From: Brachyspira sp. G79
Lineage (GTDB): Bacteria; Spirochaetota; Brachyspiria; Brachyspirales; Brachyspiraceae
Assembly: GCF_002379365.1 (NCBI RefSeq)
Contig: NZ_JQIU01000008.1
Span: 1,182,733 to 1,235,496 of the forward strand
Length of the DNA stretch: 52,764 bases
Direction of reading: 5' to 3'
In this document: piece after piece, positions 3,230-43,932 of the stretch
Layout of the letters: every line of letters begins with the position of its first letter
Numbering within the stretch: the first letter of the stretch is position 1
Notes under the pieces: generated by a model
The model's input: only the letters and a program-made list of their open reading frames with translations
Told to the model about the DNA's origin: nothing
Databases searched by the model: none
Position numbers and translations under genes: made by a program

Positions 3230-4306
3230 TCATTTAAAATATAAACTATTCATTACATCACAGGCAAATGATATCAAACTATTGCTTATAGTGACAGTAG
3301 ATGAAATTGTAAGTATTATAGATTCGCTTCCTTTACTTACAACAGCTATAGCATTAAAAAAATCATTTTTATTTATCTTTGATGTAAAAATAAACTCTGC
3401 AAATAAATCATTATAATCTTCTCTGTTTTTTGTAGATATTGGTTTAATAATAGAATAAAGCTCTCCCCTTCTATCTCTAAAGCCGTCAAATAACTCTTTT
3501 ATAGCCTTTTCATCATATTTTTCATTGCTATAGCTTATTATGATTGATATTCTATTATCTGGGCTTTCTATTTTTAATAAAGAACCTTCTATATATGCAT
3601 TAAAATTTTCTGGTACAAGCAAATGAAATCTGTCTGGATTTGCCTCAATTGATGTAAACTTATCCATATAAAATTTAGAATTATCTATCAAATATTTAAT
3701 ATTATTAATTCTGTTTATAATATTAACATCATTTTTACTTATAGTTAATGCTCTTTCTAAAATATCAAAAGCCTCATCATATTTATACATAGCTCTGTAT
3801 GCTACTGACATATTAATCATAGATAAAACATCATCATTATCTATAGATACAGCCTTTTTATACTTTTCTATGGCTTCATTATGCTTTCCTTCCATTGATA
3901 GTATAATTCCATACTGCCCATAAATACTGGAATTAATATCTCCAATGGATATAAGTTTTTCTATTACATCTTTAGCTTTATCATACTGATAAGTATTTAT
4001 AAGCGCCTCAATTTTGTTTTCAAGCAAATCCTTATCATCTTTTATAAAACTAAGACCTTTATCCATTAATTCTATTACGGAGTTAAAATTATTTTCTTCA
4101 TAATATATATCTGCTAAAACTAAATATCCGTATTTATATTTATTGTCTTTTTTTATTAATTCTAAAGCTAGTTTTTTAGCATAAGAAATATTATTTATAT
4201 CTATTAAATTATTTATCTTTTCTATAACAATATCATTACTTTCTTTTATAACCTCTTTAATATCATCATCTACATTGATATTATTTACACTTTCACTAGC
4301 TAACAT
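3230..4306 (-). CDS. Tetratricopeptide repeat protein
   Basis: A 358-residue cytosolic protein with no signal peptide. Residues ~40-215 form about five TPR-like helical pairs (for example YLVLADIYYEENNFNSVIEL, and GQYGIILSMEGKHNEAIEKY followed by VLSMINMSVAYRAMYKYDEA). Residues ~220-358 are a separate alpha/beta domain of unknown family. TPR stacks bind partner proteins, but the partner cannot be inferred. It starts 4 bases after the HAD phosphatase stop, and its SD (TTGGAG) overlaps that junction, so the two are translated from one mRNA. Confidence 0.8.
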   Translation of the reverse strand: MLASESVNNINVDDDIKEVIKESNDIVIEKINNLIDINNISYAKKLALELIKKDNKYKYGYLVLADIYYEENNFNSVIELMDKGLSFIKDDKDLLENKIEALINTYQYDKAKDVIEKLISIGDINSSIYGQYGIILSMEGKHNEAIEKYKKAVSIDNDDVLSMINMSVAYRAMYKYDEAFDILERALTISKNDVNIINRINNIKYLIDNSKFYMDKFTSIEANPDRFHLLVPENFNAYIEGSLLKIESPDNRISIIISYSNEKYDEKAIKELFDGFRDRRGELYSIIKPISTKNREDYNDLFAEFIFTSKINKNDFFNAIAVVSKGSESIILTISSTVTISNSLISFACDVMNSLYFK

Positions 4307-15404: not shown

Positions 15405-16490
15405 ATGAAAAAAATTGTATTTATGCTGTTATTACTGAGTTCTTTTGCATTCGCTATAGATGATATAGTAGATAAAGATAATATGCACAATTTGATAGAA
15501 GGAGTAACATCAACAAGATTCGGTTCTGATAGAGTGAGTACAATATATGATTTTGCTCCGCTTATGAACAGCAATACACCTTTAAAATTGGGAGTATCTA
15601 TATTAGATTTATCACATATAGTCGATAACAGTTACACAAATCAGGACGGAAAAAGAAAACTAGCGTTTCTGCCTAAAGCATTTGTCGGCTTAAGTTACGG
15701 AATGTTTGCTTTCGGATACCAGTTTAATTTATATAATGATCTTACAGATAAAAACAGACCTATTGCTCATAGCCATTCCTTTTCATTTGGATTTGCAAAT
15801 GAAAGATACAGACTCTCTCTTCCTATATCATTTTCTTTTGGAGATAAAAACTATTATGGAGGAAAAGTATCTATAAGTACAACTCCGAAATTTAGTTTTA
15901 TGTTCAGAGGCGGCTTATTAGATGAGTTTACAATATCTCTTCATTATGGTATTCAATTATCTTCAGTTACAAATACTACTGTAACAGGAACTAATATAGC
16001 ACCTATGGTCATAGGTGGTTCTTTATATGGTAATATTATGCTTACAAGATTTGATAATTTCCCAGTACAGATAAGTATGCCTTTAAAAGTAGCATTTTAC
16101 TATGGTATAGGAGCCAGATGGGCTAGTATAGATGCTGGATATGCTGAAGATGCTTTAAACAATTATTTATATGATGATAATGGTGAACGTGCCACTGACA
16201 GTATGAGATTCTATGTATTAGTGCCTGCCAAATTTGAAACAAAACTTGGTGCTTTTTATGCATATATTATGCCTAGGCTGATGTTTGAAGGAAATATATT
16301 CAAAACAGACGGATATTATAATATGCATTATGGTATAGAGGGTGAAATGAGAATGACACTTATAGAAAATCTCACATTTGGTCTTACCGCATATGCTGAA
16401 GGTCAAGGAATAATGAGAAAAAGTACTGACTTTGAAATTAATAATGCATTCGGAGGCGGTATAGATGTATGGGGAATTTGGAGATACTAA
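15405..16490 (+). CDS. Outer-membrane-type beta-barrel surface protein, possibly Vsp-like
   Basis: A 361-residue exported protein. The first 17 residues (MKKIVFMLLLLSSFAFA) form a signal peptide with an AFA cleavage site. The mature part alternates polar and hydrophobic residues with many Gly/Tyr/Phe and no hydrophobic helices, and ends in an aromatic residue (DVWGIWRY), a pattern typical of outer-membrane barrels. Length and composition resemble Brachyspira variable surface proteins, but I cannot assign a specific name. SD GGAG precedes the ATG. It ends 24 bases before the first small ORF of the double-cubane cluster genes, so read-through into that system is possible. Confidence 0.7.
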   Translation: MKKIVFMLLLLSSFAFAIDDIVDKDNMHNLIEGVTSTRFGSDRVSTIYDFAPLMNSNTPLKLGVSILDLSHIVDNSYTNQDGKRKLAFLPKAFVGLSYGMFAFGYQFNLYNDLTDKNRPIAHSHSFSFGFANERYRLSLPISFSFGDKNYYGGKVSISTTPKFSFMFRGGLLDEFTISLHYGIQLSSVTNTTVTGTNIAPMVIGGSLYGNIMLTRFDNFPVQISMPLKVAFYYGIGARWASIDAGYAEDALNNYLYDDNGERATDSMRFYVLVPAKFETKLGAFYAYIMPRLMFEGNIFKTDGYYNMHYGIEGEMRMTLIENLTFGLTAYAEGQGIMRKSTDFEINNAFGGGIDVWGIWRY

Positions 16491-16514: not shown

Positions 16515-16592
16515 ATGATAAACAATTTTTCTAAATCAAAAATAATAGCTGCTGTAGGTTATTTATCTAAGAAATATACCAGACATAATTAA
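16515..16592 (+). CDS. Small ORF (25 residues) upstream of the first DCCP-like gene
   Basis: The short reading starts with MINNF and has the core YLSKKYTRH near the end. An alignable 26-residue ORF (17866-17946) lies at the same place before the second paralogue: 13 of 24 aligned residues are identical and most others conservative, while several identical residues use different codons (GCT/GCC, TAT/TAC, TTA/CTA, TCT/TCC, ACC/ACA). That pattern favours a translated peptide over a chance ORF. No strong SD is visible, so translation may rely on read-through from the upstream gene. Basic and partly hydrophobic; function unknown. It could be a leader peptide or a small partner protein. Confidence 0.5.
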   Translation: MINNFSKSKIIAAVGYLSKKYTRHN

Positions 16593-16600
16593 TATATTCT

Positions 16601-16617
16601 TTCTATAGTCTATAGAA
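16601..16617. promoter_or_regulatory. Perfect inverted repeat before the first DCCP-like gene
   Basis: TTCTATAG-T-CTATAGAA, 8-bp arms, lies 8 bases after the small ORF stop and 39 bases before the DCCP ATG. A near copy is at the equivalent place before the second paralogue (17954-17972). There is no T-tract, so an operator or mRNA hairpin is more likely than a terminator. Confidence 0.5.
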
Positions 16618-16656
16618 TAATAATTAATTTTTAATTTTATTTTAAAGGATATAATT

Positions 16657-17811
16657 ATGTCTAATAATAATGATTTACCAGAAATTTTTGAAACATTTAC
16701 AGAAGCACGCAAAAAAGGCTTTCTTACTATGAAAGAAGAAAAAGATAAAGGAAGAAAAGTAGTAGGAACATTTTGTACATATACACCTAAAGAAGTAATA
16801 TATGCTGCTGATGCCATAAGTGTATCATTATGCTCTACCAATGATGAGACTATACCTGAAGCTGAAAAGTATCTGCCTAAAAATTTATGTCCGCTAATAA
16901 AATCAAGCTACGGATTTGCTGTCAGCGATAAATGCCCTTATATGTATTTTTCTGATATTATAATAGGAGAAACAACTTGCGACGGTAAAAAGAAAATGTA
17001 CGAGCTTTTAGGTGAAATAAAAGATACTCATATTATGCAGCTCCCGCATTCTCAAAATAAATTATCATTAGAAATTTGGAAAAATGAGATAAAAGAACTT
17101 ATAAAAAGATTGGAAGAAAAATTTAATATAAAAATTACAGAAGAAAAATTAAGAGAAGCAATAAAATCATGCAATGAAGAGAGAAAAATAATAAAAGAGT
17201 TTTTTGATTTAGGAAAATTAGTACCATCCCCTATTAAAGGAAGTGAAATGCATGAAGCTTTGCAGTCATCTAATTATAAATTTGATAGAAAACTTTATGT
17301 AAAAGAAATAAAAAAATTAATAGATAATTTAAAAGAAAAATATAATAACGGAGAATATCCTTTTGATGAAAATACTCCTAGAATTTTGATAACAGGCTGT
17401 CCTACAGGAGGACTTGTTGAAAAAATAATAAAGCAAATAGAAGAAGCAGGTGCAAGTGTAGTATGCTTTGAAAACTGTGTGGGGACAAAAAGTTTTGAAA
17501 TGCTTATTGATGAAGAAAATAAGGATACAATAGAAGCTATAGCAGATAGATACTTAAATATTCCATGCTCTGTGATGACGCCTAATAATGAAAGAATAAA
17601 GAGAATAAAACAATATATAGATGAATATAAAATAGACGGTGTTGTAGATGTTACTCTTACAGCATGCCATACATATGCTGTAGAAACTGAAAAAGTAAGA
17701 AGAGCTACAGAAGAGCTAGGAAAATCATATCTGCAGATAGAAACTAATTACTCAAATAGTGATGCTCCTCAGCTAAGAACTAGATTAGAAGCATTTGTTG
17801 AAATGTTATAA
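16657..17811 (+). CDS. Double-cubane cluster protein / YjiM-like (2-hydroxyacyl-CoA dehydratase family)
   Basis: A 384-residue Fe-S protein of the HgdB/BcrC fold, closest in motif order to E. coli YjiM and the double-cubane [8Fe-9S] cluster proteins (DCCP) rather than to true acyl-CoA dehydratase subunits. Landmarks are LPEIFETFTEARKKGFL, GTFCTYTP, SLCSTNDETIPEAEK, NLCPLIKSSYGF, DKCPYMYFSD, GETTCDGKKKMYE, ITGCPTGG, FENCVGTK, LTACHTYA and SDAPQLRTRLEAF. The many conserved Cys include enough ligands for two cubanes. Members reduce small molecules such as acetylene, azide or hydrazine in vitro, and the natural substrate is unknown. SD AAAGGA precedes the ATG. It forms a tandem pair with 18016-19167, with sulfur-mobilising and activator genes downstream. 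Confidence 0.88.
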   Translation: MSNNNDLPEIFETFTEARKKGFLTMKEEKDKGRKVVGTFCTYTPKEVIYAADAISVSLCSTNDETIPEAEKYLPKNLCPLIKSSYGFAVSDKCPYMYFSDIIIGETTCDGKKKMYELLGEIKDTHIMQLPHSQNKLSLEIWKNEIKELIKRLEEKFNIKITEEKLREAIKSCNEERKIIKEFFDLGKLVPSPIKGSEMHEALQSSNYKFDRKLYVKEIKKLIDNLKEKYNNGEYPFDENTPRILITGCPTGGLVEKIIKQIEEAGASVVCFENCVGTKSFEMLIDEENKDTIEAIADRYLNIPCSVMTPNNERIKRIKQYIDEYKIDGVVDVTLTACHTYAVETEKVRRATEELGKSYLQIETNYSNSDAPQLRTRLEAFVEML

Positions 17812-17829
17812 ATTATTTGTATATTTTGA

Positions 17830-17858
17830 TTGACAAACAAAGTTATTTTGATTATAAT
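17830..17858 (+). promoter_or_regulatory. Consensus promoter before the second small ORF/DCCP unit
   Basis: TTGACA (17830-17835), 17 bases, TATAAT (17853-17858): a perfect sigma-70 consensus. The expected start is ~17865, one base before the small ORF ATG at 17866, so its mRNA would be practically leaderless. Confidence 0.75.
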
Positions 17859-17865
17859 TTTAATT

Positions 17866-17946
17866 ATGATTACTGATTTTGCTATAAACAAATTGATAGT
17901 AGCCATTTCTTACCTATCCAATAAATATACAAAACATACATTATAA
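17866..17946 (+). CDS. Small ORF (26 residues) upstream of the second DCCP-like gene
   Basis: Starts MITDF, has the core YLSNKYTKH, and is homologous to the ORF at 16515-16592 with synonymous codon differences. It lies directly after a consensus promoter and would be read from a leaderless transcript. It stops 69 bases before the DCCP ATG. The pair most likely arose when the DCCP unit was duplicated, and both copies have kept the reading open. Function unknown. Confidence 0.5.
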   Translation: MITDFAINKLIVAISYLSNKYTKHTL

Positions 17947-17953
17947 TCTTTTA

Positions 17954-17972
17954 ATTCTATAGGATATAGAAT
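17954..17972. promoter_or_regulatory. Inverted repeat before the second DCCP-like gene
   Basis: ATTCTATA-GGA-TATAGAAT, 8-bp perfect arms, lies 7 bases after the small ORF stop. It shares TTCTATAG and TATAGAA with the repeat at 16601-16617 although the surrounding bases differ. Probably an operator or leader hairpin. Confidence 0.5.
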
Positions 17973-18015
17973 CCATTTCTATTTTTATAAACAAATATAT
18001 TTAGGGAGTAATAAT

Positions 18016-19167
18016 ATGTCTAACAACAATTTACCAGAAATTTTTGAAACATTTGCTGATGCACGCAAAAAAGGCTTTCTTACTATGAAAGCTGAAAAGG
18101 ACAAAGGAAAAAATGTAGTAGGTATTTTTTGTACTTATACGCCTAGAGAAATAATATATGCTGCTGATGCTTTAAGCGTATCATTATGTTCTACAAGCGA
18201 AGAGACTATACCTGAAGCAGAAAAACATCTGCCTAAAAATTTATGCCCTCTAATAAAATCGAGTTATGGATTTGCTATTACAGATAAATGTCCTTATATG
18301 TATTTTTCTGATTTAATAGTAGGGGAAACTACCTGCGACGGTAAAAAGAAAATGTATGAACTTTTAGGAGAGGTAAAAGATACTCATGTTATGCAGCTGC
18401 CTCATACAAGAAACAGCTATTCTTTTGAACTTTGGAAAAATGAAATAAAAGAACTTATTAAAAAACTAGAAGAAAAGTTTAATGTAGAAATAACAGAAGA
18501 AAAATTGAAAGATGCTATAAAATTATGCAATGAAGAGAGAAATGTTATGAAAGAATTTTTCTCGCTTGCAAAATTAGTACCTTCCCCAGTTAAAGGAACT
18601 GAAATGCATGATGTTATGAACTCTTCTAATTTTAAATTTGATAAAAAAGAATTCTTTGAAGAAATAAGAAAAACTACACAAAATATGAAAGAAAGATATG
18701 ATAAAGGCGAAACTCCTTTTAATGAAGATACTCCTAGAATACTTATCACAGGCTGCCCTACTGGAGGTGTTGTTGATAAAGTAATAAAACAAATAGAAGA
18801 AATTGGTGGAAGTGTTGTATGTATTGAAAACTGTGTGGGAACTAAAAACTTTGAAATGCTTGTTGATGAAGAAAATAAAGACCCTATAGAAGCTATAGCA
18901 GAAAGATACATAAATATACCTTGTTCTATTATGACTCCTAATGACGGAAGAATGGAGAGAATAAAACAGTATATAGAAGATTATAAAGTTGACGGTGTTG
19001 TAGATGTTACGCTTACAGCATGCCACACATATGCAATAGAAACTGAAAAAGTAAGAAGGACAGTAGAAGGATTAGGAAAATCATATTTGGCAATAGAAAC
19101 TAACTACTCAAACAGCGATGCTCCTCAGTTAAGAACTAGATTAGAAGCGTTTGTTGAAATGCTTTGA
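18016..19167 (+). CDS. Double-cubane cluster protein / YjiM-like, second paralogue
   Basis: A 383-residue tandem duplicate of the preceding gene, roughly three-quarters identical. It keeps every conserved Cys segment (GIFCTYTP, SLCSTSEET, NLCPLIKSSYGF, DKCPYMYFSD, GETTCDGKKK, ITGCPTGG, IENCVGTK, LTACHTYA), so both copies should carry the cluster. Differences concentrate in residues ~185-240 (the linker between the two lobes). SD GGGAG is better than that of copy 1, and the unit has its own consensus promoter, so this copy may be the more strongly made. Subunits of the family work as dimers, so a heterodimer of the two paralogues is possible (inference). Confidence 0.88.
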   Translation: MSNNNLPEIFETFADARKKGFLTMKAEKDKGKNVVGIFCTYTPREIIYAADALSVSLCSTSEETIPEAEKHLPKNLCPLIKSSYGFAITDKCPYMYFSDLIVGETTCDGKKKMYELLGEVKDTHVMQLPHTRNSYSFELWKNEIKELIKKLEEKFNVEITEEKLKDAIKLCNEERNVMKEFFSLAKLVPSPVKGTEMHDVMNSSNFKFDKKEFFEEIRKTTQNMKERYDKGETPFNEDTPRILITGCPTGGVVDKVIKQIEEIGGSVVCIENCVGTKNFEMLVDEENKDPIEAIAERYINIPCSIMTPNDGRMERIKQYIEDYKVDGVVDVTLTACHTYAIETEKVRRTVEGLGKSYLAIETNYSNSDAPQLRTRLEAFVEML

Positions 19168-19235
19168 TGATATTAAAAAATATTTAAATAATATTAAATA
19201 ATAATAAAATAATAATAAAAAAAACATTTTTTAAT

Positions 19236-19271
19236 AGGTAAACTAGTATTAATTAATATACTAGTTTACCT
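19236..19271 (+). promoter_or_regulatory. Long inverted repeat between DCCP 2 and the desulfurase gene
   Basis: AGGTAAACTAGTAT (19236-19249) pairs perfectly with 19258-19271 over an 8-base A/T loop. No T-run follows on the plus strand, so it is not a standard terminator for this operon. It may be an operator, a processing hairpin or a partial terminator tuning the downstream genes. Confidence 0.5.
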
Positions 19272-19297
19272 AGAATAAAAAATTATCGGATACTTTT

Positions 19298-20443
19298 ATG
19301 ATTTATTTTGATAATGCGGCAACTACATTAAAAAAGCCTGATACCGTTGCAAAAGCAGTTTTTAAAGCTATAAATAGTTTTGCTAATGCATCAAGAGGCT
19401 CTTATGAAGCATCATTAAGCAGCGAAAGAATAATACTTGAAACAAGAGAAAGAATAGTAAAACTTTTTAATGGATACACTCCAAACTATACAGTGTTTAC
19501 AAGTAATTCTACAGAAGCATTAAATACCGCAATTAAAGGTATAATACAAAATCATAAAGATACTCATATTATAACAACATCATTAGAACATAACAGCGTT
19601 TTAAGACCTCTCTATGAAATGCAGGAACTTGGTACGGAACTTACGATAATAAATACCAATATCAAAGGTGAGATAAATTATAATGATATAGAAAAAAATA
19701 TAAAACAAAATACAAAAGCAATTATATGTACTCATGCCTCTAATGTTATAGGCGATGTTTTGGATATAGATTTTATAGGCAGTTTATGTAAAAAACATAA
19801 TATACTTTTTATACTGGATGCTTCTCAAAGTGCAGGAAGTATAGATATAGATATGAAAAAAAGTAATATTGATATTGTATGCTTTACTGGTCATAAAGGG
19901 CTTATGGGACCTCAAGGAACTGGAGGGCTATGTATAAAAAAAGGTATAGATATAAAACCGTTAAAAACTGGAGGCTCTGGCATTAAAACTTATTCAAAAA
20001 CTCAGCATGAAAACATGCCAGTAAGACTTGAAGCAGGTACTTTAAATAGTCATTCTATAGCGGGACTTAATGCTGCATTAAAGTTTATAGAAGAAGAAGG
20101 CATAGAAAAAATAAGAAATCATGAAAGACAATTAGCAAAATATTTTTATGATGAAATAAAAAATATAGAAAATATAAAGTTCTATGGTAATTATAATACT
20201 GATAAAAGAACATCAATAGTATCTTTAAATATTGCAGATATTGATTCTGCCAAAATATCTGATATACTTTCCTCTAAATACGATATAGCCACTAGGTCTG
20301 GAGGACATTGTGCCCCACTTATGCATACTTCTCTTAATACTGTTAATCAGGGGATTGTAAGATTCAGTTTTTCTTACTTTAATACAATAGAAGAAATAGA
20401 AAATGGAGTTAATGCTGTAAAAGAAATAAGCAGGCGTTTTTAA
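19298..20443 (+). CDS. Cysteine desulfurase family protein (class V aminotransferase fold)
   Basis: A 381-residue PLP enzyme of the NifS/SufS group, closest to the EF2568-type subfamily (TIGR01977) that often lies near selenium or sulfur-carrier genes. It removes S (or Se) from Cys as an enzyme-bound persulfide. Visible features are MIYFDNAATTLKKP, STEALNTAIKG, the PLP lysine in FTGHKGLMGPQGTGG (~201) and the catalytic Cys in RSGGHCAPL (~337). The placement between the double-cubane genes and an activator with a DUF3343 tail suggests a dedicated sulfur source for the cluster or carrier (inference). Only a weak SD (CGGATA) is present. Confidence 0.9.
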   Translation: MIYFDNAATTLKKPDTVAKAVFKAINSFANASRGSYEASLSSERIILETRERIVKLFNGYTPNYTVFTSNSTEALNTAIKGIIQNHKDTHIITTSLEHNSVLRPLYEMQELGTELTIINTNIKGEINYNDIEKNIKQNTKAIICTHASNVIGDVLDIDFIGSLCKKHNILFILDASQSAGSIDIDMKKSNIDIVCFTGHKGLMGPQGTGGLCIKKGIDIKPLKTGGSGIKTYSKTQHENMPVRLEAGTLNSHSIAGLNAALKFIEEEGIEKIRNHERQLAKYFYDEIKNIENIKFYGNYNTDKRTSIVSLNIADIDSAKISDILSSKYDIATRSGGHCAPLMHTSLNTVNQGIVRFSFSYFNTIEEIENGVNAVKEISRRF

Positions 20444-20497
20444 ATTTGTAATAAAAAATATTAATAAATGATAAATAAAATATAAAGGAAAAATAAA

Positions 20498-21577
20498 ATG
20501 TATTATATTGGTATAGATATAGGATCAACTGCTTCAAAAGTGGCGGTTTTTGACGATGAAAAAAATGATTTGACAGAATTATTTATGATTCCTACAGGCT
20601 GGTCTGGAGTAGAGGCTGCTTCAAAAATATTAGAAATGCTTAAAGAAAAAAATATAAATAAAGAGAATTCATATTTTACAGGTACAGGTTACGGAAGAGT
20701 ATCAATAGAATATGCAAATAAAACTATAACTGAAATTACTTGTCATGCCAAAGGTGCTAATTTTTTATTCAATAATTTAAACGGAACTTTAATTGATATA
20801 GGCGGACAGGATACAAAAATAATAAGCATAAAAAATGGAAAAGTTGATAATTTTATTATGAATGATAAATGCTCAGCTGGTACTGGAAGATTCATAGAAT
20901 TAATGGCAAACTCTTTGGGCTGTTCTATACCTGCCCTTCTTGAAGAGGCTGAAAAATGTAATGATACTGATGTTGTTATAAGCTCTATGTGTACAGTATT
21001 TGCAGAAACAGAAGTTATAAGCCTTAAAGCAAGCGGAAAACAAAAAAATGAAATAGCATATGCAATAGTAAACTCTGTTGCAAATAAAGTTGCTTCTCTT
21101 TGTGGAAAGTTTAAAGATGATACGTACTTCCTTACTGGGGGATTATGTGTATTTGATTATTTAATAAAAACTTTAGAGAAAACATTAGGCGGAAAAGTTA
21201 TTACAGACAGCAGAGGACAATATGCAGGTGCTATAGGGGCTGCTATTATTGGTTTTGAGAAAAATGCCTCTAATAAAAATAAAATAAAACAAAACTCTTC
21301 AAACATAAAAAACAATGAAAAAAAAGAAGAGATAAAAGACAAAAGATTAATAATAACTTTTAATACCACAACAGATGTTATGAGGGCTGAAAAATCATTT
21401 AAAAATGTTATGTCAGAAACTAATGAGCCTCTTGGAAAAATAATATCAATACCAAGCGAAATATCAGCAGGATGCGGAATGTCTTGGGAAAGTGAAATAC
21501 ATTTAAAAGATAAATTAACTAATATATTAAAAGAAAATGATATAGAATATGACAATTTTTATGAAATATATAAATAG
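20498..21577 (+). CDS. YjiL-type dehydratase/DCCP activator ATPase fused to DUF3343
   Basis: A 359-residue protein with two parts. Residues 1-~255 are an ASKHA-fold activator (YjiL / DCCP reductase): GIDIGSTASKVAVFDD, the YjiL-typical PTGW, TGYGRVSIEYA, DIGGQDTKII, and the two Cys of the dimer-bridging [4Fe-4S] cluster in NDKCSAGTG (~125) and SSMCTVFAE (~165). It hydrolyses ATP to inject low-potential electrons into its partner. After a Lys/Asn-rich linker (~256-280), residues ~281-355 are a DUF3343 domain (S/Se-carrier-like), with FNTTTDVMRAEKSF and IPSEISAGCGMSWES, whose Cys (~326) is conserved. YjiL proteins normally lack this domain. SD AAAGGA lies before the ATG. Confidence 0.88.
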   Translation: MYYIGIDIGSTASKVAVFDDEKNDLTELFMIPTGWSGVEAASKILEMLKEKNINKENSYFTGTGYGRVSIEYANKTITEITCHAKGANFLFNNLNGTLIDIGGQDTKIISIKNGKVDNFIMNDKCSAGTGRFIELMANSLGCSIPALLEEAEKCNDTDVVISSMCTVFAETEVISLKASGKQKNEIAYAIVNSVANKVASLCGKFKDDTYFLTGGLCVFDYLIKTLEKTLGGKVITDSRGQYAGAIGAAIIGFEKNASNKNKIKQNSSNIKNNEKKEEIKDKRLIITFNTTTDVMRAEKSFKNVMSETNEPLGKIISIPSEISAGCGMSWESEIHLKDKLTNILKENDIEYDNFYEIYK

Positions 21578-34654: not shown

Positions 34655-36661
34655 TCACTTGCTGTATTTTTCGAATATGCTTTTTATTTCATCATCAAAG
34701 ATTATTGACCACTTTATATATTCATTATTCATAGATAAATCTGCTCCATTTTTTAGTAAAAGCTCAAATATGTAAGCATTTTTCTTTTTGGCTGCTATAA
34801 CTAATGCAGTATTTCCTTCAGGGTCTGTCATGTTAATATCAGCATTATTTTTTATAAAAAACTCTGCAAGTTTTACATGTTCTTTCTTAATAGCAGCCAT
34901 TAGAGGAGTATATCCATCTTTTCCTCTTTTATTAATATCTGCATTATTATCTAATAATATTTTTGCAATTTTTCTCTTTTCAACAAGAGTTAAAGGCGTA
35001 TCTCCAAAATCATCTTGAAAATTAACATCTATTCCTTTTGATATATATTTTGATACTTTTTCAATTTCTCCATATGAAACACTATTAAGAAATTTGGAAT
35101 TTCTCTTATATTCTTTATCATGATAACTTTTAAAAATGTTAAACATATCATAATTTTCATTTTTACTCGCATAATATAATGCTCTTCTTCCATAAACATC
35201 TCTTGCAAATACATCAGCTTTATTTTCTATTAAAATTTTTACTATATTAATATGATTATGCATAGCAGCAAGAATTAAAGCACTAGAACCTAATTTACTT
35301 TGAATATTAATATCAGCATTATTTGCTATTAATAAGTTTAATATTTTTTCAGCATTATAAGAAGCAGCACACATTAAAGGACTAATACCGTCATTGTCCA
35401 TAGCATTTACATAGGCTCCTCTTTTTATAAACTCTTCTGCTATATCAAAGTTATTGTCATTATTAGAAATATATTCTAAAGCTGTATTATTTAAATAATT
35501 TCTAAAATTAACATCAGCATTATGTTCTAATAATATTTTTATTATTTCTTTATAATGACTGCGTGAAGCTAAAAGCAATGCATTAAATCCGAATTTCCCG
35601 TATACAGCATTATTAATATCAACTCCTTCAGAAATATATTTTAAAACATCATCTATTTTATTTTCAATAACTGCATATAAAAATTTTATTTCCTTAGATG
35701 AAGCATCTAATATTAATTTTACCATTTTCTCTTGATAAATATTTTTATTATGTGCTATATCTAATGCAGTTTCATCATAGTTATTTTTTAATGTCAAATC
35801 AGGATTATATTTCAAAAGAAGCTCAGCAATCTCTATATTATGTCCATTTACACTATACATCAGAGGGGTTTCTTTTCTATGATCGGATAAATTAATATCA
35901 GCATTATGCTCTAACAATATTTTTGCTATATCATAAGAACTATCATCACATGCAATTATCAAAGGAGTTCTGCCCCATTTATCTTGTACATTAGGACTTG
36001 CATTATATTCAAGTAAAGCTTTAACCATATCAATATTTCTACTTTCACATGCATATATTAAGGCGGTATTTTCTTCATCATTATTTTTTATTTCTGTATC
36101 AGCATTATTCTCTAATAAAGCTATTACAAAATCAGTTTTTCCAGCATAAGAAGCCCCTATTAATGCTGTAAAGCCTCTATTATCCTTTGCGTTTATATCT
36201 GCTCCATACTCTAATAATATTTTTATTATTTCTCTACTAGGTTTATTATTTTCCATTAAGGCATAATATATTAATGCCGTTTCTCCTTTTTGATTTTTAT
36301 AATTAGGATCATAGCCGTTTTCAAGTAATATTCTCACTATTTCAGCATGATTTCCGCTGCAAGCTATCATCAATGCAGTTAAATAATTATTTTCTAATGT
36401 AGTCTCTATATACATATCAGCTTTGTGTTCAAGAAGAATTTTAACTACATCTGCATTGCCATAAATACATGCATATATCAAAGCAGTATAATTATAATGA
36501 TTAGTTATATTTACAGAAGCATTATACTCTAATAAAAGTTTTACTATATCAACATTTCCTTTGTAAGAAGCAATCATTAAAGGGGTATATCCGTCTTTAT
36601 TCTTAAAGTCAATTTCAATATCTTTTTCTGAAGCAACATTTTTTATTATTTTTATTTTCAA
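34655..36661 (-). CDS. Ankyrin repeat protein, N-terminus shifted
   Basis: A 668-residue solenoid of about 18 ankyrin repeats, each ~33 residues with the TPLMIAS...G..DIVKLLLEYNADIN pattern. Two non-canonical joints (near residues ~320-345 and ~510-530, DVLKYISEGVDINNA and EIEKVSKYISKGIDVNFQ) start new repeat blocks. Ankyrin stacks bind proteins, and secreted examples act on host cells, but no signal peptide is visible. The in-frame start (36661) is probably not original: the preceding 58-residue reading at 36615-36791 has the good SD, and one base less in the six-T run at 36639-36644 joins it as NKNNKNVASEKD. Full length would be ~710 residues. Confidence 0.9.
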   Translation of the reverse strand: MKIKIIKNVASEKDIEIDFKNKDGYTPLMIASYKGNVDIVKLLLEYNASVNITNHYNYTALIYACIYGNADVVKILLEHKADMYIETTLENNYLTALMIACSGNHAEIVRILLENGYDPNYKNQKGETALIYYALMENNKPSREIIKILLEYGADINAKDNRGFTALIGASYAGKTDFVIALLENNADTEIKNNDEENTALIYACESRNIDMVKALLEYNASPNVQDKWGRTPLIIACDDSSYDIAKILLEHNADINLSDHRKETPLMYSVNGHNIEIAELLLKYNPDLTLKNNYDETALDIAHNKNIYQEKMVKLILDASSKEIKFLYAVIENKIDDVLKYISEGVDINNAVYGKFGFNALLLASRSHYKEIIKILLEHNADVNFRNYLNNTALEYISNNDNNFDIAEEFIKRGAYVNAMDNDGISPLMCAASYNAEKILNLLIANNADINIQSKLGSSALILAAMHNHINIVKILIENKADVFARDVYGRRALYYASKNENYDMFNIFKSYHDKEYKRNSKFLNSVSYGEIEKVSKYISKGIDVNFQDDFGDTPLTLVEKRKIAKILLDNNADINKRGKDGYTPLMAAIKKEHVKLAEFFIKNNADINMTDPEGNTALVIAAKKKNAYIFELLLKNGADLSMNNEYIKWSIIFDDEIKSIFEKYSK

Positions 36662-39244: not shown

Positions 39245-42200
39245 TTATTTAGCATAAGCACCTATTTCATCTTTTATAGTATCTTCAACCATTACACTAT
39301 TCATACTATCTTTAGCAGAACGTACGAAGAACTCTAAACGGTTTATAGTATTAACTTCACTAGCACCAGCATCCATATCCAAATAAAGAAGATTCAAATT
39401 AGGATATCTAGTTTTAAGTCTAGTTTCAATACCGCGTGCTATGATATGATTAGCAATACAACCAAAAGGCTGCAAACAAAGTACATTATTAACACCCTCT
39501 TCAGCAAAAGTAGCTATTTCACCAGGTAAAAGCCAAGCCTCTCCAAATTGGTTAGTCATAGCAGTAACTTTAGCAGCATTCTCAGCTATTTGGCGTATAT
39601 GATGAGCAGGTCTGAAACCTTTGAATTTTGACATTATCTGATTGATAGAATCTACCCTTACATCAATAACTTTTTCTGAAAGTTTAGAGCCGTAATATCC
39701 AAGGAATGATACATCTCTTGCATTAGTTTCTTTGTTTACCTGTTCGCTTATAACTTTTTGTACGAAGAAGTCAAATACAGGAGGAACTATTACCTCTACT
39801 CCTTTAGCCATTAGCCAATCACAAACATCACCGTTAGCAAACTTATTATATTTTACATAAATCTCGCCTACCAAACCAGCTTTAGGAAGCTCTAAATCAT
39901 CATTAGTTTCAATAGCATTAAACTCAGCTACTGCTTGTTTTAATAATTTATCAGTGGCTTTAAGAGCAAAATCTTTAGGGTGTAAAGCTATATATTTATT
40001 AGCAAGTGCCAAAGATTCGCCTCTTTTTACTTCGCGTGCTGCTGTGTAATAATACATTGTAGATATAGCATCAGCATAAGGCATAGCTATAATACCCTCT
40101 TTCATCAAATCAATTTTTGAAAGCTCAAAACCTGGCTGATCATTAATAACAGTAAGCCCTACAGTTACTACTGGAACATCTGGATAACCTGCATTGATTA
40201 ATCCTCTTTTTATAAGAGAAGCGTAGTTGCTAGCACGGCATTGTCCGCCTGTCTGAGTAATACCAGCAGCTATATTTTTAGGATCATATTTGCCGCTTTG
40301 CACAGCTCTTATAATATCTCCTATAACAATAGTAGCAGGGTAACATATATCCTGATTTGCATATCTTAAACCAAGTTCAACTGATTCAACATCTGGTTCT
40401 GGAAGAGGAATTGTATCATACCCACTTCTTTCTAATAGAGTTAAAATCATAGGATCATAGAATTGACCGAATTTAGGAACAAGTATTGCACGTCTGTCAT
40501 TTTTTTCATATCTTTTAATGATAGTTCTATTTGGTTTATCAGTAACTGTAAAGTCACCTTTCATTCTCATACTTTCTATCATAGAACGTATTCTTAATCT
40601 AATACTTCCGGGGCTTGAAATTTCATCAACTTTTACCAAAGTAGGATTTTTTCCATAAGCATTAAGTATAGATTTTATCTCATCTGAAGTAGTAGCATCA
40701 GGACCGCATCCGAAACTGTTAATCTGAACTACTTCAAGTTTCATATCTTTTTGCTGGCAAGCCCATAAAGCAGCTTTAAACATTTTATTAGGATAAGACC
40801 ATTGAGTTAATACCTGTACATCTCCAAGACTAGTATCATTGATATCAAGTCCGTCCTCTGTAAGTACATTAATACCAAATGAAGCAATAGTTTCTGGTAT
40901 TTTATGATTAATTAATGGGTCAATATGATAAGGTCTGCTTACTATAAGTATAGTAGGTGTCTGAGTTTCTTTGGCATGTTCTATTATCTTTTTGCCTTCA
41001 GCTTTTAATTCATTTTTTACTCTTACTTGTTCCTGCAAAGCTATTTTGAAAGCTCTATCAAAATCTTTTTTGTTTATGCCAAGTCCTTTAACAAAATATG
41101 CCTTACAGCCTTTGTATAATAAATCTTCATTCAAAAAAGAAATTGTCGGAGCATCGAAAGGTATGCCGTATTTAGTTAATGGGCTGATAGAACTGTCTAT
41201 TACATCTGGATATCCTGTTACTACAGGACAGTTATAGCTATTGGCACTTCCGTCATCTTCACTTTTTTCAAGTACAACTGAAGGATAGAATATTCTGTCT
41301 ACTTTAGATTCTATCAAATCATATATATGTCCGTTAGCTATTTTAGCAGGGAAACATATATTATCACTCATAACAGTACCAGAACCTTTTTCTGCTATAG
41401 CCATACTAGAAGGTGAAGATAACTGTACTCTATATCCGCATTCTACAAGTATAGTAGCCCAGAATGGGAAATTTTGATACATATTAAGTACACGAGGTAT
41501 ACCAATAGTACCTTTTATTTCATCTGATGCTGGAGCTAAAGGTCTGTCAAAAAGAAGAGAAAGTTTTTTCTGAGTAATATCCATTCCATAATTTCTTTCT
41601 TTGTTTCCTTTATTGGTGAATATTCTCTCACATTTATTTCCAGTATAGAATGATTTATTATCTTTGAATTTTAATCTTGTAACAGTACAAAGGTTTTCGC
41701 AGCCTTTACAAGTAAGCTGTTTTCTTTCATAATCATTAGCTTCCTGTAAATTATCCAAACCTATAAAAGTGGTATCTTCTTCTTTAGTGTTATAAGTATC
41801 CAAAGCAAGCAATGCACAGCCGTATGCTCCCATAAGCTCGGATATATCTGGACGAATAACTTTTTTATTTAAGAACTTTTCTACAGAACGAAGAACAGCA
41901 GAGTTTTTGAAAGTACCTCCCTGAACAACTATATGATCTCCTAAAATAGAAGTATCAGTAATTTTTAATACTTTAGTGAAACAGTTTAATGTAACACTTT
42001 TAGCTAGTCCTGCAGAAATATCCGCAACAGAAGAGCCTTCTCTCAAAGACTGTTTAACTTTACTATTCATAAATACTGTACAGCGGCTTCCCAAATCGCA
42101 AGGACTTGCAGATTCGCATGCTATATTGGCAAAATCAGCTACTTTATACCCCATTCCTCTTGCAAATGTTTCTATAAATGAACCGCAGCCCGAAGAACAA

Positions 42201-43555
42201 GCCTCATTAATTTCAATATTTTCTATAATACCGTCTTTAATAAATATAGCTTTCATATCCTGTCCGCCTATATCAAGTATAAAGCTTACATCTTTATCAA
42301 AAGCCTTAGCACCTCTGTAATGAGCCATAGTTTCTACTATACCCTCATCCATATTGAATGCTGCTTTTATTAAATCTTCACCGTATCCTGTAACAGCAGT
42401 TCTTGCTATATTTATTTTAATATTTTTTTCATCTAGTTCTTTTTTTATCTCTGTAAGACCTTCAGTAACAGCACCTACTGGATTACCATTATTGTTTCTG
42501 TAATGTCTTAAAACTACCTGTCCGTCTTCATCAATAATAACTATTTTAGTAGTAGTAGAGCCTGAATCTATACCTAAAAATGTATTTTTTCCATTAACTG
42601 TAGATACATCAGCAGATCTTACTTTATCTTTGCTATGCTCTTCTTTCCAATCATCATATTCTTCCTGACTTGTAAATAATGCTTCTCTTGTTTTAGAATT
42701 AGTTATTTTTACTTCAGCAGAAATATTTTCAACTAATCTTGTAAACTCAGAAACTTTTATTATAGTTTGATCTTCCTTTTCTCCGAAAGCAGCACCTATT
42801 GCAGCAGTTAATTCTGGGTGTTCAACTGTATACATATCTTCTTCGGTGGCATTTAAAAGTGCTAGGAATGTTCTTCTTAATTCTGGAAGGAAAGTTAAAG
42901 GACCTCCAGTAAATAATATTTTAGGCTTTATTTCAAAACCTTTAGCTAAAGTATTAACTGTCTGAACCGCTACAGCTTGGAATATACTCTTAGCAATATC
43001 AGCTTTTGGAATATCACGGCTTATAAGTGTCTGTACATCTGTTTTAGCGAATACTCCGCATCTGCTTGCCATAGGATAAATAGAAGTTGATTTTTCTGCC
43101 AATGTAGAAAGCTCAGAAGGCTGAACATTAAGAAGTGTAGCCATTTGGTCTATAAAAGCTCCAGTACCGCCTGCACAGTTGCCGTTCATTCTAATATCAG
43201 CTTTGAAATTATCATCAAATACTATAATCTTTGCGTCTTCTCCTCCTATATCAATCAATGTCCTTCCATAAGGATAAATCTTTCTAATAGCAGTTGAAGA
43301 AGCAATTACTTCCTGTACAAAACTAATGCCAGTCTTTTCACATACCCCCATACCTGCAGTACCTGTCATAGATAAAGCAAGAGTTAAATCTCCATGCATA
43401 GCCTGAAGATTTTCTAGTATGGATAATAATGTATCTTTTATGTCAGCATTATGTCTTACATAAGTTTTAAATATCATATTATTTTTATCATCATATACAA
43501 CCATTTTAGCAGTAGTTGATCCTATATCAATACCCGCTTTGAAAATTTTTTCCAT
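39245..43555 (-). CDS. Giant acyl-CoA dehydratase activase-related protein (two activase domains + DUF2229 + dehydratase-like part)
   Basis: A 1436-residue cytosolic protein. Activase domain 1 spans ~1-280 (GIDIGSTTAKMVVYDD, LIDIGGEDAKII, NGNCAGGTGAFIDQMA, SRCGVFAKTD) and activase domain 2 ~325-590 (GIDSGSTTTKIVIIDE, FILDIGGQDMKAIF, EACSSGCGSFIETFA, SRCTVFMNSKVK). Both keep ATP motifs and the cluster Cys. Next come a Cys cluster (CKGCENLCTVTRL) and DUF2229 (IGIPRVLNMYQNFPFW, SDNICFPAKIANGH). The C-terminal ~700 residues resemble the HgdB-like lobe (INSFGCGPDATT, NQDICYPATIVIGD, QTGGQCRASNY). ATG 43555 with SD AGGAGA is chosen over 43585. This fused type is common in clostridia, its reaction unproven. 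It follows panD by 26 bases. Confidence 0.88.
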   Translation of the reverse strand: MEKIFKAGIDIGSTTAKMVVYDDKNNMIFKTYVRHNADIKDTLLSILENLQAMHGDLTLALSMTGTAGMGVCEKTGISFVQEVIASSTAIRKIYPYGRTLIDIGGEDAKIIVFDDNFKADIRMNGNCAGGTGAFIDQMATLLNVQPSELSTLAEKSTSIYPMASRCGVFAKTDVQTLISRDIPKADIAKSIFQAVAVQTVNTLAKGFEIKPKILFTGGPLTFLPELRRTFLALLNATEEDMYTVEHPELTAAIGAAFGEKEDQTIIKVSEFTRLVENISAEVKITNSKTREALFTSQEEYDDWKEEHSKDKVRSADVSTVNGKNTFLGIDSGSTTTKIVIIDEDGQVVLRHYRNNNGNPVGAVTEGLTEIKKELDEKNIKINIARTAVTGYGEDLIKAAFNMDEGIVETMAHYRGAKAFDKDVSFILDIGGQDMKAIFIKDGIIENIEINEACSSGCGSFIETFARGMGYKVADFANIACESASPCDLGSRCTVFMNSKVKQSLREGSSVADISAGLAKSVTLNCFTKVLKITDTSILGDHIVVQGGTFKNSAVLRSVEKFLNKKVIRPDISELMGAYGCALLALDTYNTKEEDTTFIGLDNLQEANDYERKQLTCKGCENLCTVTRLKFKDNKSFYTGNKCERIFTNKGNKERNYGMDITQKKLSLLFDRPLAPASDEIKGTIGIPRVLNMYQNFPFWATILVECGYRVQLSSPSSMAIAEKGSGTVMSDNICFPAKIANGHIYDLIESKVDRIFYPSVVLEKSEDDGSANSYNCPVVTGYPDVIDSSISPLTKYGIPFDAPTISFLNEDLLYKGCKAYFVKGLGINKKDFDRAFKIALQEQVRVKNELKAEGKKIIEHAKETQTPTILIVSRPYHIDPLINHKIPETIASFGINVLTEDGLDINDTSLGDVQVLTQWSYPNKMFKAALWACQQKDMKLEVVQINSFGCGPDATTSDEIKSILNAYGKNPTLVKVDEISSPGSIRLRIRSMIESMRMKGDFTVTDKPNRTIIKRYEKNDRRAILVPKFGQFYDPMILTLLERSGYDTIPLPEPDVESVELGLRYANQDICYPATIVIGDIIRAVQSGKYDPKNIAAGITQTGGQCRASNYASLIKRGLINAGYPDVPVVTVGLTVINDQPGFELSKIDLMKEGIIAMPYADAISTMYYYTAAREVKRGESLALANKYIALHPKDFALKATDKLLKQAVAEFNAIETNDDLELPKAGLVGEIYVKYNKFANGDVCDWLMAKGVEVIVPPVFDFFVQKVISEQVNKETNARDVSFLGYYGSKLSEKVIDVRVDSINQIMSKFKGFRPAHHIRQIAENAAKVTAMTNQFGEAWLLPGEIATFAEEGVNNVLCLQPFGCIANHIIARGIETRLKTRYPNLNLLYLDMDAGASEVNTINRLEFFVRSAKDSMNSVMVEDTIKDEIGAYAK

Positions 43556-43581
43556 AATATCTCTCCTAAATATTAAGTATT

Positions 43582-43932
43582 TCAATCTATTATAAAATTT
43601 TTCATATTTACAAATATTACTTTAGTTTTAAAGTTATTTATACTATCCTCAGCTGCATGTCCATAAGAAAGTATTATTATAGTATCATCTTTTTTGGCAT
43701 AATGAACATTGTCTCCATTAATACCTATAACTCCTGTTCCGCGTATGCCTTTAACTGCAACTGTTTCAAACCTTTTATCATTACTCAAATTAATAATAGA
43801 TACCCTATCCCCTTCTAGTATATTAGCTTTATCCATCAAGGCTTCATCTATTGTTATTGAGTCTTTAAAATTTAAATCAGTTCTTGTTACCGTAAGTCTG
43901 TGTATCTTAGACTTTATAATACTTCTCATCAT
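43582..43932 (-). CDS. panD: Aspartate 1-decarboxylase (PanD) homologue with altered key residues
   Basis: PanD makes beta-alanine for pantothenate/CoA and self-cleaves at Gly24-Ser25 to form a pyruvoyl group. This 116-residue protein aligns from its start: SKIHRLTVTRTDLNF has Lys9, His11 and Arg12, Ser25 is present in DSITIDEA, Arg54/Thr57 are in KRFETV, and NG72-73 in GINGDN. But residue 24 is Asp (GAC) instead of Gly and residue 58 is Val instead of the proton-donor Tyr. So self-processing or catalysis may be altered or lost. It lies 26 bases upstream of the giant CoA-dehydratase activase gene, likely one operon. Confidence 0.8.
   Translation of the reverse strand: MMRSIIKSKIHRLTVTRTDLNFKDSITIDEALMDKANILEGDRVSIINLSNDKRFETVAVKGIRGTGVIGINGDNVHYAKKDDTIIILSYGHAAEDSINNFKTKVIFVNMKNFIID

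Follow-up and report, generated by a model that had tools for sequence, protein, structure and literature searches.

A double-cubane cluster protein operon of Brachyspira with a linked cysteine desulfurase, an activator-DUF3343 fusion and small leader open reading frames

Why would a spirochaete keep two double-cubane cluster proteins (DCCPs) in tandem beside a cysteine desulfurase, each preceded by a very small open reading frame (sORF)? The question is raised by a locus on the chromosome of Brachyspira sp. G79, where the region from 16.2 to 21.9 kb was read in a stretch of 52,764 nucleotides (the window). The best overall explanation, which we regard as probable, is an operon for DCCPs and their reductase that includes dedicated genes for sulfur mobilisation and is under leader control. 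The family assignments of the genes, made from profile scores and alignments, can be considered firm. This kind of system was already known; what is new is detail at the level of the genus, namely the fusion of the activator to DUF3343 and the sORF/palindrome leader, and these are the features most worth specialist attention. An earlier sequence-only reading had already named the protein families, the small ORFs with their inverted repeats and a spirochaete host, and all of these were borne out; its interpretation as a whole was supported in part. The locus lies on the + strand and is followed by argF:

15405-16490, + strand: outer-membrane protein (OMP) gene, 361-aa product resembling an outer-membrane protein, without a match in a Pfam search
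16515..16592, + strand: sORF1, 25 aa, MINNFSKSKIIAAVGYLSKKYTRHN; its ATG lies 24 nt past the upstream OMP stop
16601..16617, no strand: palindrome TTCTATAGTCTATAGAA, between sORF1 and DCCP1
16657..17811, + strand: DCCP1, double-cubane cluster protein, 384 aa
17830..17858, + strand: perfect sigma-70 type promoter TTGACA-N17-TATAAT, with 7 nt between it and sORF2
17866..17946, + strand: sORF2, 26 aa, MITDFAINKLIVAISYLSNKYTKHTL, homologue of sORF1, predicted to be leaderless
17955..17971, no strand: palindrome TTCTATAGGATATAGAA, between sORF2 and DCCP2
18016..19167, + strand: DCCP2, 383 aa, 78% identity to DCCP1
19298..20443, + strand: TIGR01977 cysteine desulfurase family enzyme, 381 aa
20498..21577, + strand: DCCP reductase (YjiL-type activator) fused to DUF3343
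21338..21577, + strand: DUF3343 (Se/S carrier-like) domain of the fusion, with a single invariant Cys, C326

Both DCCPs scored far above the cut-off of the NF040772 ‘double-cubane-cluster-containing anaerobic reductase’ equivalog (539 bits for DCCP1 and 544 for DCCP2, cut-off 350), and DCCP2 aligned with the DCCP structures PDB 6eno/7yyl over 356 residues (E 3.5e-77). The genus was sampled with 26 Brachyspira species genomes, which contain 18 DCCP copies. Cysteines 39, 58, 77, 92, 107, 247, 273, 303 and 336 were kept in all 18 and were also invariant across nine diverse DCCPs; eight cysteines of the Brachyspira proteins align with 6eno. In BzdN, six cysteine thiolates ligate the [8Fe-9S] cluster (PMC11971306). 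DCCP positions 39, 77, 107, 273, 303 and 336, present in 18/18 copies and the probable ligands of the cluster, appear to be shared with BzdN, in an alignment-based mapping in which the match of Cys107 is approximate. In the DCCP tree the Brachyspira copies formed one clade, the neighbours of which were not resolved. Within the genus two clades were found, DCCP1 in all 13 DCCP-positive genomes and DCCP2 in five, each of which also has DCCP1. Purifying selection on both is strong (dN/dS 0.03–0.14 between species). Acetylene, hydrazine and azide are in vitro substrates of DCCPs, with unclear physiological relevance (summarised in PMC11971306).

The desulfurase exceeded the TIGR01977 cut-off (442 bits, cut-off 377), resembles SufS-like structures and has its catalytic Cys338 in 13/13 DCCP-positive genomes. 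The activator was well above the cut-off of TIGR00241 (DCCP reductase/CoA-enzyme activase; 233 bits, cut-off 125) and aligned to residues 2–258 of 1hux (E 9e-54), with the ASKHA motif kept and cluster cysteines 125 and 165 invariant in 13/13. Its residues 284–356 match PF11823 (DUF3343/Se_S_carrier; 61.9 bits, gathering threshold 25), and the cysteine of this domain is invariant in the 13 Brachyspira sequences and in 16 diverse members. Modelled alone with AlphaFold, DUF3343 gave a beta-alpha-beta-beta-alpha-beta fold (pLDDT 95), a comparison of which with the PDB turned up generic ferredoxin-like folds but no match at E<=0.001. The model of the full fusion, for which 10 close relatives were used, was of low quality (pLDDT 51), and no claim on domain packing is therefore made. 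The two domains are fused in 12 of the 13 DCCP-positive genomes; in genome G001 they are two adjacent ORFs. Outside the genus, a scan of named genomes yielded 80 loci, 77 of them non-Brachyspira, and in none of these 77 was an ORF found that combines two of the families. The activator-DUF3343 fusion has been seen so far in Brachyspira only.

How these proteins would work together can be proposed by homology. Driven by ATP hydrolysis, the activator would donate low-potential electrons one at a time to the [8Fe-9S] cluster of DCCP1 or DCCP2, and the DCCP would then reduce a small substrate; published work on DCCP and its reductase (DCCP-R), together with the conserved motifs, makes this ATP-driven transfer to the double cubane very probable. 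Cysteine would be the sulfur source of the desulfurase, which would take the sulfur up as a persulfide and probably pass it on to the DUF3343 tail at Cys326. As this tail is fused to an activator that docks on DCCP, it would deliver the sulfur to apo-DCCP or to a cluster under repair. Co-inheritance, the fusion and the invariant cysteine point to such a hand-over, to which we give an even chance. If true, the electron pump doubles as a sulfur-delivery device. Through the fusion the DUF3343 carrier is linked directly to the DCCP machinery, and not to selenium metabolism alone.

The two sORFs are homologous to each other, and a homologue precedes 17 of the 18 Brachyspira DCCP copies. A profile search of the 26 whole genomes gave exactly 17 matches at E<1e-14, each of them ahead of a DCCP gene; the next best hit had E=0.0017. 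This recurrence is far beyond chance. Upstream of the 77 non-Brachyspira DCCP loci no match was found, and the conserved mini-gene of 25–26 residues has been seen so far in Brachyspira only. The diverged (type-1) sORFs are under frame-specific purifying selection, with a ratio of non-synonymous to synonymous variation (pN/pS) of 0.20 in frame; the two alternative frames give 1.8 and 3.1. Third positions hold an excess of the variable columns (Fisher p 0.005 for type 1 and 0.012 for all, with columns taken as independent). In genome G008 (L031) sORF1 has lost its usual stop and extends to 29 aa, overlapping the palindrome. An amphipathic membrane peptide was considered and rejected, the helical moment being not above that of shuffles.

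Two arrangements were found upstream of the sORFs. In nine copies, comprising 9/9 type-2 leaders, a perfect TTGACA-N16/17-TATAAT promoter ends 7–10 nt before the sORF ATG, so that the mRNA is probably leaderless or nearly so; the promoter at 17830..17858 is the only 12/12 site in the region. The other nine copies have GGAGATAYTAA just upstream. In eight this sequence closes the OMP gene, which is found in all the genomes, and the distance from OMP stop to sORF ATG is 5–24 nt in the seven with an intact sORF. The motif is present in G001 too, where it is probably a remnant of the OMP gene. In the one DCCP-negative genome read at this place (G022, L224), a hairpin that resembles a terminator, as judged by eye, comes after the OMP stop.

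The palindrome, TTCTATAGnnTATAGAA, lies 5–9 nt past the sORF stop in most copies (overlapping in G008) and 39–81 nt, usually about 44, before the DCCP ATG, with a 15/15 consensus match in 16 of the 18 leaders. Before DCCP1 of genome G018 it survives a decayed sORF with symmetric changes (CTCTATAATATATAGAG) and is thus probably maintained for a role separate from that of the sORF. As an RNA hairpin, the copy at 16601..16617 is weak (−3.5 kcal/mol), and the leader RNAs fold no more strongly than shuffles (z 0.09 and −0.20); a DNA operator is therefore favoured. The same folding values do not support a structured riboswitch or attenuator, and an Rfam search of the region returned no credible RNA family. 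As a regulon-wide operator the palindrome was also set aside: no clear regulon emerged, the exact form occurring about once per genome outside DCCP leaders, at places where the adjoining genes were not examined.

Each DCCP gene would accordingly possess its own cis-acting leader, a translated ORF of 25–26 residues followed by a palindromic operator-like site, placed either directly behind a strong promoter and probably leaderless, or behind the OMP stop codon. A cis-regulatory role of the sORF is somewhat favoured over a small protein acting in trans, since each gene keeps its own copy, in several genomic contexts, at near-fixed spacing to the palindrome. In the alternative, the product would be a DCCP subunit, chaperone or assembly factor. 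The conservation of its amino acids while synonymous sites drift and its strict linkage to DCCP agree with this, but a separate copy per paralogue, at near-fixed spacing to both palindrome and DCCP start, is what a cis element would show, and DCCP loci outside Brachyspira lack the sORF; we consider the trans-acting protein possible but the less probable of the two. The cis-acting leader can be specified further only tentatively: it may be a nascent-peptide or leaderless-mRNA leader which, coupled to the palindromic operator, adjusts DCCP synthesis to the sulfur, iron-sulfur or redox state that it senses. As a concrete and testable regulatory element, the sORF/palindrome leader could help to identify the inducing signal. 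A sensing leader, if true, would give a first clue to the conditions that DCCPs answer to, and through these to their substrate.

Does the sulfur set belong to the DCCPs or to selenium metabolism? DCCP was present in 13 of the 26 Brachyspira genomes, and the whole set was found in these 13 and was absent from the other 13. TIGR01977 was exceeded in 13/13 DCCP-positive and 0/13 DCCP-negative genomes, in agreement with the dedicated desulfurase and DUF3343 proposed in the sequence-only reading. This split within one genus offers natural matched pairs for phenotype comparison. In G001 (L042 around 3640-3670) the cluster occupies a different chromosomal site, beside fliLMY-like genes; the short sequence resembling the end of the OMP gene ahead of the sORF suggests that it moved there from the OMP site.

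A second desulfurase, which scores 304–330 bits and stays below the TIGR01977 cut-off, occurs in all 26 genomes close to a short DUF3343. YedF was just upstream in both loci examined, and selD is close by in genome G006:

L210:5598-7515 (G000:C8 about 1091597-1093514), also L211: Brachyspira yedF-desulfurase-DUF3343 set

This core set shares a paralogous desulfurase and DUF3343 with the DCCP operon; unlike in the operon, its desulfurase (330 bits) stays below TIGR01977, lies beside yedF and is independent of DCCP. Since this pair is in all 26 genomes and selD (above cut-off in 25 of the 26) is independent of DCCP, the DCCP operon carries a second, dedicated sulfur set, and its presence does not track the selenium machinery. 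The description of the system as ‘self-contained’ was overstated, as yedF, selD and an electron donor were all absent from the DCCP cluster.

A selenium module, with the desulfurase as selenocysteine (Sec) lyase, DUF3343 carrying selenide and the DCCP acting on a selenium compound or containing selenide, would fit the nearly universal selD and the published neighbourhoods. A Sec lyase/DUF3343/YedF/activase/2-HGD neighbourhood has been described in Slackia heliotrinireducens (Lin 2015, PMC5322559), and selenium-linked clusters contain DCCP, DCCP-R and Sec lyase (PMC10418091). The basic gene association is therefore already known. Yet the DCCP-linked desulfurase scored 317 bits against selenocysteine lyase SclA (NF040779), below the cut-off of 525, the cluster has neither selD nor yedF, and selD and a separate desulfurase-DUF3343 pair are present with or without DCCP. 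These last two observations make selenide less likely and weaken the bridging selenide allowed for earlier; we regard the selenium module as unlikely. The Slackia neighbourhood unites the same protein families as the Brachyspira cluster, which differs in having no YedF or SelD and in the fusion of DUF3343 to the activator.

Outside the genus, the nearest DCCPs by identity were from Fusobacteriota (59–62%), followed mostly by Clostridia (about 49–58%). In 7 of the 77 non-Brachyspira loci DCCP, activator, desulfurase and DUF3343 shared a strand and lay within 8 kb, contiguously in L112, L123 and L165. The gene set is thus conserved well beyond one strain, in half the genus and again in Clostridia. 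Firmicutes UBA5420 (L112) and Eubacteriales STF2_94 (L123) have the same four families as Brachyspira, differing in a separate DUF3343 ORF, a single DCCP and no homologous sORF. A Desulfotomaculaceae metagenome-assembled genome (L159:10430-14222) carries two tandem DCCPs, then desulfurase and DUF3343, which is the Brachyspira order without the activator. The Carboxydothermus hydrogenoformans DCCP/DCCP-R pair (6eno, 7yyl) is alike in the reductase and activator families, aligned cysteines, ASKHA and cluster-Cys motifs; Brachyspira differs from it by two DCCPs, a linked desulfurase, the activator-DUF3343 fusion and the sORF/palindrome leaders.

Several observations weigh against an operon with dedicated sulfur genes and leader control. 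Most DCCP-activator pairs outside Brachyspira (38 of the 77 loci) have no desulfurase or DUF3343 close by on the same strand, so that a DCCP can do without them, and the published context cited above ties such genes to selenium. As for the leader, the type-2 sORFs have diverged too little for a frame contrast to be visible, the sORF of the G018 DCCP1 copy is destroyed, and the palindrome is also found elsewhere about once per genome.

A heterodimeric 2-hydroxyacyl-CoA dehydratase or benzoyl-CoA-reductase-like (HAD/BCR) enzyme with division of labour, suggested by the layout of tandem homologous subunits plus activator and by the superfamily PF06050 common to both groups, is very improbable, as scores against HadB/HadC, BcrB/C and BzdN equivalogs were far below the cut-offs (at most 123 vs 700 and 88 vs 454), both paralogues keep every conserved Cys, where in HAD/BCR one subunit loses part of the cluster, and 8 of the 13 DCCP-positive genomes have a single DCCP.

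DUF3343 was also surveyed in the phylum of L123, where it was found in 241 of 399 genomes. Among the matches listed, the only frames longer than 400 aa were fusions to a HydE/BioB-like radical-SAM protein (by eye) and none to an activator, which is not proof of absence as the survey covers the stronger matches only. In L123-phylum genomes DUF3343 is the N-terminal part of the fusion:

L215:4297-5586: DUF3343 fused to HydE/BioB-like radical-SAM protein
L216:3808-5169: the same fusion
L217:3871-5205: the same fusion

A TIGR01977-like desulfurase adjoins the fusion in two of these three loci.

Minus-strand ORFs inside the DCCP genes (e.g. 18417-18911) overlap conserved genes. Elsewhere in the window, the minus strand encodes a 668-aa ankyrin-repeat protein (34655-36661) and a 1446-aa protein with BcrAD/BadFG activase domains and DUF2229 (39245-43585). 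Nearly all Brachyspira genomes searched have a homologue of the latter in a long open frame, with about 31% identity to the activator, and its occurrence is unlinked to the presence of DCCP.

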